DNA from: Bacillota bacterium
GTDB lineage: Bacteria; Bacillota; SHA-98; Ch115; JABLXJ01
Length of the DNA: 64,000 nucleotides
Assembly (NCBI GenBank): GCA_013178125.1
Contig: JABLXJ010000005.1
Location: 62,001 to 126,000, forward strand
Reading direction: 5' to 3'
Shown: positions 24,130-26,222 of the stretch, piece after piece
How the letters are laid out: each line of letters opens with the position of its first letter
Numbering within the stretch: the stretch's first letter is position 1
Translations under genes and position numbers: made by a program
Notes under the pieces: generated by a model
The model's input: only the letters and a program-made list of their open reading frames with translations
What the model was told of the DNA's origin: nothing
Databases searched by the model: none

Positions 24130-24579
24130 TTAGAAGGCCTTCTTGCTGTCCAAAAGGATCGTGACCGGCCCGTCGTTTTGAATCTCCACGAGCATCATGG
24201 CTCCGAACTCCCCGGTAGCTACTGCCAGCCCTTGCTCGCGCAGCTGCTGAACATATGCGACGTAAAGGGCGGTAGCGATATCGGGCGGCGCGGCCTCGGA
24301 AAAGCTTGGCCTCCGGCCGTGCCTGCAATCCCCATAGAGGGTAAATTGGGAGATAGCAAGCACCTCCCCGCCAACGTCAAGACAGGATAGATTCATTTTC
24401 CCGTTACTATCCTCGAATATCCTGAGGTTCGCGGTCTTCTCCGCAAGATAGCGGGCATCCTCCGGGCCGTCGCCGCGCCCGACGCCGACGAGGGCCACAA
24501 GCCCTCGCCCTATCTCGCCCTTCACGGCGCCATTTACGGTGACTCTACCGGAGCGAACCCTCTGTATCACGGCTCTCAT
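24130..24579 (-). CDS. dtd: D-aminoacyl-tRNA deacylase
   Basis: Editing enzyme that removes D-amino acids (and glycine from tRNA-Ala) from charged tRNA. The 149-residue length is normal. The two signature motifs are present: SQFTLYGDC near residue 78 and NDGPVTI near 137. GAGGA lies about nine bases before the ATG. It lies in a run of four leftward genes with the coiled-coil gene ahead and the amidohydrolase directly behind. Confidence 0.96.
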
Positions 24580-24611
24580 TCAATACTTTCCTCGGCTTTC
24601 CTATTGAGAGA

Positions 24612-25379
24612 TTATCTAGCAATCTCCTCGAGCTTGGCGACCCGAGTGACAAGATAGCGGGTGTCAGTGGAAATAGCTTCCAGCCTATTCTCTATGTGGC
24701 CAAGCCTATCCTCATGGGACTGGAACGCATCGAAAAGTATGCGAATTTTATCAATGACCTCATTTTCGAAGCGGGTCTCGAGTCGTATCTGCCCCTTCTC
24801 GATATTGTCAACACGAGAAGTGAGACTATCAACATGAGCGCTGAAACTGTCAACATGGGAACTAAGATCGTCAACATGAGAACTAAGATCATCAACGCGA
24901 GAACTGAGACTGTCAACATGAGAACTGAGATCCCCAACGCGAGAATTGAAACTGTCAACATGGGAACTAAGATCGTCAACATGAGAACTGAGATCCCCAA
25001 AATGGGAAGTGAGATCGTCAACACGGGAACTCAAACCGTCAACATGAGAACTAAGATCATCAACGCGAGAACTGAGACTGTCAACATGGGAACTGAGATC
25101 CCCAACATGAGAACTGAGATCGCCAACATGGGAAGTGAGATCGTCAACACGAGGAGTGAGATCGTCAACATGAGACGCAAGGCTGTCAACACGGGACGCA
25201 AGCTTATCTTGCCCCGCCTCGATATTATCAAGACGAGATACAACCTTAGCTTGCTGCGACTCCATATTGTCAAGACGTGACTCAAGCCTTGCCTGACCGG
25301 TTTTTAGATCGCTTACGTCGGACTTGGCACTCTTGATCTCGCTGAGGATCTCTTTTAGAAGGTCTTCCACGTGATTCAC
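24612..25379 (-). CDS. long coiled-coil protein with 19 tandem heptads
   Basis: A 255-residue protein of no known function. Residues 60-192 are 19 unbroken heptads of the type V-D-D-L-S-S-H, with Val and Leu at the a and d positions. This predicts one continuous coiled coil of about 20 nm. The conserved C-terminal part (IDKIRILFDAFQSHEDRLG, then DTRYLVTRVAKLEEIA) resembles short coiled-coil proteins common in Firmicutes, in which the heptad block is far shorter. The start is GTG 25379, or GTG 25370 with AGGGAG ten bases upstream. It may share a transcript with dtd, 32 bases away. No signal peptide or membrane segment is seen. Confidence 0.8.
   Translation of the reverse strand: MNHVEDLLKEILSEIKSAKSDVSDLKTGQARLESRLDNMESQQAKVVSRLDNIEAGQDKLASRVDSLASHVDDLTPRVDDLTSHVGDLSSHVGDLSSHVDSLSSRVDDLSSHVDGLSSRVDDLTSHFGDLSSHVDDLSSHVDSFNSRVGDLSSHVDSLSSRVDDLSSHVDDLSSHVDSFSAHVDSLTSRVDNIEKGQIRLETRFENEVIDKIRILFDAFQSHEDRLGHIENRLEAISTDTRYLVTRVAKLEEIAR
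24804..25202 (-). repeat. 21-bp tandem repeat array encoding coiled-coil heptads
   Basis: 399 bases made of 19 imperfect copies of a 21-base unit (plus-strand form close to ATGGGAACTAAGATCGTCAAC). Neighbouring copies differ by a few bases, and longer blocks of two to three units recur. Every copy keeps the 21-base length, so the reading frame and heptad phase never break. Confidence 0.9.
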
Positions 25380-25582
25380 GCTCCCTAAATTCCTTGAAAT
25401 CTCGCCTGCCTGACCAGTCTTTACTAGACGCAGCTATGTATCTATCTTACCCTGTTTTAGCACCGGTTCCTTTGGCTCTTGTAGTCTCTGGTTATTAACC
25501 TCTTGCTGTCACTGTTGCCAACCCCGGCATATTTGACATGATGATTATACCATAAACTGGATAAATGAGGCAAGCCCATGAT

Positions 25583-25735
25583 CTAAAAATTTACTTCTAA
25601 AAATTGTATATAGCTCCCCGCCCTTTCAGATCCCATTTCAGGTGGCACGCCCTTGTTGCACGGCACTTTCGCGATCTCATACTCGAGCTTAAACTTATAA
25701 AGAAGCTTAAGACCGGCCTTGACATGATGGTCCAC
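25583..25735 (-). pseudogene. possible gene remnant, 50 codons
   Basis: A GTG-started frame reads as plausible protein (VDHHVKAGLKLLYKFKLEYE, then PEMGSERAGSYIQF) and stops at 25583. No ribosome site precedes it and a stop lies just upstream, so it looks like a decayed piece of a larger gene. I cannot name the family. The rest of the 453-bp spacer 25380-25832 shows AT-rich sequence near 25745-25795 that may hold the arsR-type promoter. Confidence 0.22.
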
Positions 25736-25832
25736 AACGAGCTATAGTTTATTTAAACGGTTGCTTAATTTATAAGTTTTTATTAAATCTCCGAGGCCTT
25801 TGATATTCCGGTGACTCGGCAAACGGGGGTGC

Positions 25833-26222
25833 ATGTTATCACATATGAACGCCAGCCCTTCTCCTTCGAATGGGGACATCTGCGACGATTTCTGCCCATC
25901 CCCCGTGAAAAGCGGGAAAGATGCCCACCTCAGAGCTAAGCTCTTGGAGGTAGCAGGATTATCTGAGATATTCAAGGTGCTGGGGGATGAAACACGCACC
26001 AAGATACTTTATCTTCTCGCCCAGGAAGAGCTCTGCGTCTGCGATATAGCTCAACTCCTGGAGATGAGCCTCCCGGCCATATCGCACCACCTCCGGCTCC
26101 TGAGGGCCCTGCGCCTCGTTAAATACCGCCGGGGGGGCAAGATGGTCTACTATTCCCTGGATGATGACCACATCGTAAATCTCATCCGGCAGGCCCAGGA
26201 GCATTTTGCCGAGAACAGATAA
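25833..26222 (+). CDS. ArsR/SmtB-family metal-sensing repressor
   Basis: A 129-residue winged-helix repressor. EELCVCDIAQLLEMSLPAIS places the Cys-Val-Cys metal motif in the recognition-helix region, as in ArsR and CadC. The N-terminal extension has further thiols and acids (ICDDFCPS near residues 16-23) like the CadC N-terminal cadmium/lead site. It lies 241 bases ahead of a P1B metal ATPase in the same direction. Metal binding would release it from the DNA. The start may be ATG 25833 or ATG 25845. Confidence 0.9.
   Translation: MLSHMNASPSPSNGDICDDFCPSPVKSGKDAHLRAKLLEVAGLSEIFKVLGDETRTKILYLLAQEELCVCDIAQLLEMSLPAISHHLRLLRALRLVKYRRGGKMVYYSLDDDHIVNLIRQAQEHFAENR

Follow-up and report, generated by a model that had tools for sequence, protein, structure and literature searches.

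The window analyzed here, a stretch of 64,000 nucleotides of bacterial DNA, contains on its minus strand a gene for a coiled-coil protein with a tandem heptad array, followed by the gene for a D-Tyr-tRNA deacylase. The following features were recorded at this locus:

24612..25379, minus strand: coiled-coil gene (ORF and translation), 255 aa from GTG 25379
24804..25202, minus strand: 19 in-phase heptads with consensus LSSHVDD, DNA unit 21 bp (repeat analysis)
25184..25290, minus strand: 42-bp repeat encoding 14 residues, N-terminal to the array (Tandem Repeats Finder and unit listing)
25035..25097, minus strand: units 6-8, a three-unit block duplicated with 96.8% identity as units 14-16
24867..24929, minus strand: units 14-16, the second copy of this duplication, 96.8% identical to units 6-8
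25326..25367, minus strand: conserved N-terminal helix segment, EDLLKEILSEIKSA, in relatives EKFQELVLQQLQAL (N anchor, codons 5-18; alignment A3)
24729..24767, minus strand: C-terminal motif ENEVIDKIRILFD, conserved and central to the family signature (codons 205-217; alignments and anchors)
24615..24797, minus strand: conserved C-terminal region, used as the family profile (alignment and profile)
24130..24579, minus strand: dtd, D-Tyr-tRNA deacylase (Pfam PF02580, E 8.7e-58)
25544..25573, minus strand: candidate promoter predicted by a consensus scan, TTGCCT-18-TATAAT with TG before the -10 element (10/12 matches)

The in-frame GTG at 25370 (252 aa), rather than GTG 25379, is likely the true start of the coil gene, since an AGGGAG-like motif lies 10 nt upstream of it and it fits the N-termini of the relatives better. 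Several of these relatives start with ME or VE and continue into the same N-terminal helix. The start of dtd lies 32 bp past the coil gene on the same strand, making co-transcription of the two genes possible, and an arsR-type gene and a P-type ATPase gene are located upstream of the coil gene in divergent orientation.

The array comprises codons 60-192, that is, 399 bp or 19 x 21 bp, in a single frame with zero indels. Tandem Repeats Finder independently reports it from the array DNA (period 21, 17.6 copies, score 367, 24807-25175), so the pattern is not due to chance. The first-pass annotation had described 19 perfect heptads at these positions; the coordinates, the count, and the phase proved exact, but the sequence itself is imperfect, with a mean identity of 83% (range 57-100%) between the DNA units and their consensus. 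Identical unit sequences are rare, and only two of them occur twice. Hydrophobic residues occupy positions a and d in all 19 heptads (V in 18 units and F in 1 at position a, L in 17 and F in 2 at position d), while position g holds H in 12 units and R in 7, and unit 3, LTPRVDD, carries a proline at f. Units 6-8 and 14-16, which lie eight units apart, form a 63-bp near-exact duplication whose 96.8% identity was matched in 5 of 1000 shuffles of unit order; units are thus added in blocks, and a recent multi-unit duplication is visible within the array. The coil extends beyond the array, with the 42-bp repeat, a type frequent in relatives, on its N-terminal side and helix throughout the structural model. 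On the minus strand, the segment 24804-25084 also contains a sense-direction ladder of promoter-like TTGACA-17-GATGAT/GATAGT sites (9 observed versus 1.8 expected within 24400-25900 in the consensus scan), probably a by-product of the codons for VDS.

AlphaFold2, run with a 20-row alignment on a single chain, predicts one helix spanning residues 2-254 with a mean pLDDT of 90.4. The rise of an alpha helix is 0.15 nm per residue, giving predicted lengths of ~20 nm for the array and ~38 nm for the whole helix. The protein has the continuous heptad pattern and a single predicted helix, as expected of the coiled-coil class, and no transmembrane or signal segment was seen on reading the translation. 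Because the model of one chain shows the helix only, oligomerization of the window protein should be regarded as presumptive, and the proline in unit 3 counts against it.

Searches with the whole protein matched 212 Pfam (E<=1), 96 NCBIfam, and 220 PHROGs families. The Pfam coiled-coil profiles that matched, DUF7310 and LPP among them, resemble the window protein in coiled-coil composition and heptad period; they were rejected as kin, as matches to 212 unrelated families reflect composition. When the search was restricted to the conserved C-terminal 70 residues, no convincing match was found among the Pfam, NCBIfam, and PHROGs models, the only Pfam hits being PF10437 (E 0.0091) and PF06419 (E 0.069), both below the cut-offs. 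A PDB profile search with the C-terminal region likewise returned only coiled-coil cross-matches (best E 0.013).

On sequence grounds, the window gene is a member of an unnamed and patchily distributed Bacillota family defined here, whose members share a conserved N-terminal helix and a conserved C-terminal region with a variable core between them. It possesses the C-terminal region of the ExEVIDKIRALFD type (E 1.5e-34 with a 9-row profile that includes the window gene itself as a row) and the N-terminal helix of the EKFQELVLQQLQAL / EELLKEILGELKAL type (anchor score 23.5, threshold 12). When genomes of the phylum were sampled, the C-terminal profile A1 matched 40 of 199 and profile A2 80 of 398; in the class of genome G098, profile A2 matched 65 of 113. 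Among 43 loci, one of which is titled Deltaproteobacteria, the carriers include Desulforadius, Desulforamulus, Pelotomaculum, Desulforudis, Desulfotruncus, and many metagenome-assembled genomes. In the tree, the window gene groups with two members of its class, L044 and L011 (support 99/90), whose cores of 193 and 270 residues are built from units that differ from those of the window. Unit sequences are indeed member-specific throughout, with 76 different first-unit peptides in the 76 members that have a repeat. Glutamine is frequent at one hydrophobic core position of the relatives (30% there), within 14-residue GQxRLExRLxxVEx repeats, and this polar core residue is missing from the window array.

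Outside cellular genomes, the window protein showed one weak match among phage records (Clostridioides phage LIBA6276, 39% over residues 6-71, E 1e-3) and none among plasmid records. One viral contig with a family member (L114) was found in IMG/VR, and a search of phage records with this member gave no match. A second match in the window's own genome (G000:C47, loci L002 and L034; 63% over residues 192-254) was not counted as evidence for a paralogue, given that its 1743-bp locus is 98.3% identical over the whole length to the genome of another family, a level that would fit mis-binning as well as recent transfer.

In another genome of the same genus (G001), the flanking regions align at 84-92% DNA identity, while window positions 24593-25859 have no counterpart, and the family profile detected no member in that genome. 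The gene is thus a cassette that has been either gained or lost. The interval between arsR and dtd has the appearance of an exchangeable slot, holding the coil gene in the window and a macro-domain gene in G001 (PF01661, E 3.1e-48; L119 3746-4396).

To compare core lengths across the family, both ends were anchored by position-specific scores that ignore the core, a procedure that supersedes an earlier regex-based count of 24 members. Among 161 distinct ORFs, the C anchor exceeded the threshold in 158 and the N anchor in 125, and 36 ORFs without a confident anchor were excluded; removal of near-copies left 109 members, 107 of them with a core of >=28 residues, in which a few N anchors may have been placed wrongly inside a coil and were kept without manual correction. 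The 107 core lengths range from 32 to 305 residues over 41 values, with a median of 81. At 200 residues, the window core is well above this median, in line with the proposal that homologues have far fewer heptads; however, it ranks only fifth among the 107, and the longest core is 305 residues.

In contrast to this spread of lengths, the phase between the two ends is nearly constant. Taken modulo 7, the distance between the anchors equals 4 in 89 of the 107 members, including the window gene (d = 200), 0 in 11, 1 in 5, 5 in 1, and 6 in 1, so that 105 members are either in the common phase or shifted from it by 3 (11) or 4 (5) residues, other shifts accounting for 2. Shifts of 3 and 4 residues are the stammer and the stutter, which coiled coils accommodate. 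Stricter redundancy cuts left the common phase in 66/77, 48/55, 31/34 (50% identity), and 19/23 members. As a control, the C-terminal tail lengths of the same proteins take all seven residues modulo 7, with the commonest in 36 of 107. Among 47 pairs with ends at least 80% identical, which are not mutually independent, 43 differ in length, 39 of them by multiples of 7 and 4 by 11, 18, 24, or 31 residues. Parsimony on a tree of the joined ends requires at least 96 length changes versus 13 phase changes; this tree (117 rows, 75 columns) is weakly resolved because the ends are short. Length changes in the relatives thus consist almost solely of whole heptads, which points to selection on the alignment of the rod and not on its length. 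The family offers at least 96 countable length changes across a hundred natural proteins, which allows selection on phase to be told apart from selection on length.

The DNA repeats indicate how these changes arise. Of the 76 members in which a repeat was detected, 71 have a best tandem period divisible by 21 bp (21 bp in 18 members, 42 bp in 31); in the other 33 of 109 members, the threshold used revealed no repeat. In the sister species G006 and G014, the arrays are set apart by two in-frame indels of exactly 42 bp and 84 bp; tandem copies adjoin the gaps, and the indels are whole-unit duplications. At one syntenic locus in six species of genus g194, cores of 74, 81, 81, 88, 151, and 186 residues lie between near-identical ends. 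Short-read assemblies can mis-count repeats, but the assembly carrying the 151-residue copy (G454) consists of one contig, one 81-residue copy lies on a 2.86-Mb contig (G455), and fragmentary assemblies therefore do not account for all of this variation. Together with the phase counts, the pairwise differences, and the tree, these cases bear out in relatives the expectation that gain or loss of whole heptads preserves frame and phase, and the g194 locus (74-186 residues) supports the view that the array is fast-evolving between species. Member ORFs in L097, L093, L045, L014, L002, and L044 run off the sequence start, several of them inside the repeat; short-read assemblies seem to break at the arrays, and unit numbers in such genomes need long reads. 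The G006/G014 array (L084 4463-4962 versus L086) lies in an island of ~500 bp with 2 substitutions, whereas neighboring 150-base bins are 85-97% identical, which looks like a recent recombination tract, although it may be an assembly effect.

These observations are best explained, with a probability of about 0.72, by a length-tolerant, phase-locked coiled-coil rod joining two end modules, in which phase is kept and length is free. According to this explanation, the gene would encode a soluble, all-helical rod, probably forming a homo-oligomeric coiled coil, with the N-terminal helix and the C-terminal ENEVIDKIRALFD-type region as two conserved ends joined by the core. The core would grow and shrink by duplication or deletion of 21-bp units or their multiples, through slippage or unequal recombination, and since 21 bp correspond to one heptad, most such events would keep both the frame and the hydrophobic seam. 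Selection, acting beside mutational bias, would presumably hold both ends in phase within one continuous coil while tolerating almost any core length. The rod may serve as a connector or scaffold, and its function is directly testable with the short and long natural alleles. In those members that sit directly behind an XRE-type regulator gene, a subset to which the window copy does not belong, the rod may act on or with that regulator.

Among the alternatives, a role as accessory partner of XRE-type regulators, with an ancestral gene residing in an XRE operon (some of these in prophage-like loci), modulating the regulator, and giving rise to orphans such as the window gene as escaped copies with longer arrays, is possible, though on the unlikely side. 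It is compatible with the phase-locked rod and adds a function to it. Of the 106 loci with at least 350 bp of upstream sequence, 15 have an XRE gene as the immediate upstream neighbor in the same orientation, 9 times at a distance of 1-3 bp, a count to which no background rate is attached and for which the XRE profile was built from the XRE genes of the same loci. Pfam HTH_3 was found in all three XRE examples scanned, an IrrE-like Peptidase_M78 gene follows in the viral contig L114, and L121 (G002:C138), a frame-broken member from the window's order, also follows an XRE gene. In addition, linked cores are shorter, with a median of 46 (n=15) versus 88 (n=92; Mann-Whitney p 1.3e-4, uncorrected for kinship). 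However, the link is missing from 91 of the 106 loci, and the window locus has no XRE neighbor, for which reason the association is treated as a rival and not as the function of the window gene.

A more ambitious proposal, which we consider rather doubtful, is that these proteins are phylum-wide self-extending rods that keep the rotational phase of their end modules at free distance, each lineage with its own heptads, and that they originated as partners of XRE repressors. If this were true, a rod adjustable in its length could bridge XRE-type regulators bound to DNA or gather them into clusters, and the histidines at 12 of the 19 g positions, beside the divergent arsR/P-type ATPase pair, would allow a pH- or metal-sensitive zipper.

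Mutation alone might also produce the phase lock, as a by-product of slippage on an old repeat with a period of a multiple of 21 bp, without any need for a common phase of the ends. Units of 21 bp can add only 7n residues, and the lock could be largely mutational in this sense, as the tandem periods (71/76) and the whole-unit duplications in G006/G014 illustrate. Three results nevertheless make this improbable as a full account. First, members without a detectable DNA repeat stay in the common phase in 27 of 35 cases, with the other 8 shifted by 3 or 4, which supports selection beside mutational bias, even though these 35 cores may be old decayed repeats. Second, exceptions to the common phase fall at the two coil-compatible shifts 16 times out of 18. 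Third, core positions remain hydrophobic family-wide (91% and 69%, compared with 13-18% at other positions) despite 76 different first-unit peptides in 76 members.

We consider it very unlikely that the gene is a mobile ORF, non-functional or in decay, and that this patchily distributed repeat gene plays no part in the cell. Its presence in 80 of 398 sampled phylum genomes, its replacement by a macro-domain gene in G001, the stop codons in three matches of the window's class (G006:C70, G009:C48, and G008:C31), and the broken frame of L121 would all suit such an origin, but ends and phase are conserved over the phylum and long open frames are kept. Least credible is the molecular ruler suggested by the first-pass annotation, in which heptad number sets a cellular distance tuned by unit gain and loss: although length moves in fixed steps and fast between species, and E. 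coli Lpp shows that added heptads can set such a distance (PMC5736177), orthologues with nearly identical ends at one syntenic locus span 74-186 residues, a spread of up to 2.5-fold that a ruler of fixed distance would hardly tolerate, and the rod has no known pair of fixed anchoring sites and no transmembrane or signal segment seen by reading.

The preferred reading, a rod with locked phase and free length, can be set beside several known systems. In the cytoplasmic tail of chicken MHC BG proteins, 21-nucleotide exons encode one heptad each of a presumed coiled coil, and size polymorphism results from the length of the heptad region (PMC4046983), as in the window family; in contrast, BG genes consist of eukaryotic exons with introns and encode transmembrane immunoglobulin-type proteins, and sequence kinship is not expected. 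The poly-psi domain of NeuO from E. coli K1 is a bacterial VNTR translated as heptads (RLKTQDS), like the window array, with 1-31 copies whose number alters activity (PMC3046976). However, its 7-bp unit switches the frame on and off, the domain is appended to an enzyme, and the crystal structure did not bear out the coiled-coil model that had been proposed (PMC3046976). The window array has a 21-bp unit and both G006/G014 indels are in frame, unlike phase-variable VNTRs of this type.

In the linkers of PadC phytochrome-diguanylate cyclases, 54% of length differences are multiples of seven, with -4 as the main exception (PMC9587094). As in the present family, lengths in multiples of seven have been read as a phase constraint on an inter-module coil, and the same paper cites work on stammer and stutter shifts (PMC9587094). 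These linkers differ in being short segments within a known enzyme, with few lengths and no tandem DNA array described in the portion of the paper available. Engineered Lpp variants are similar in that a helical lipoprotein becomes a longer rod when heptads are added (PMC5736177), but Lpp is a trimeric outer-membrane lipoprotein fixed at both ends and thus a true ruler. No anchors of the Lpp type were seen in the window protein, and length among orthologues is free instead of conserved or tied to a distance.

Heptad-wise length change as a principle is therefore already known; new here are this family and how widely it occurs, together with the separation of phase from length. A literature search, with most subscription journals outside its reach, found no description of this family, and the text of PMC4350178 mentions no indel, insertion, or duplication. 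At two Pelotomaculum loci (L075 4806-5189 and L090 4620-5192), the coil gene has an ABC-type ATPase gene on one side and, downstream, a gene common to both loci that appears ECF-transporter-like by eye.
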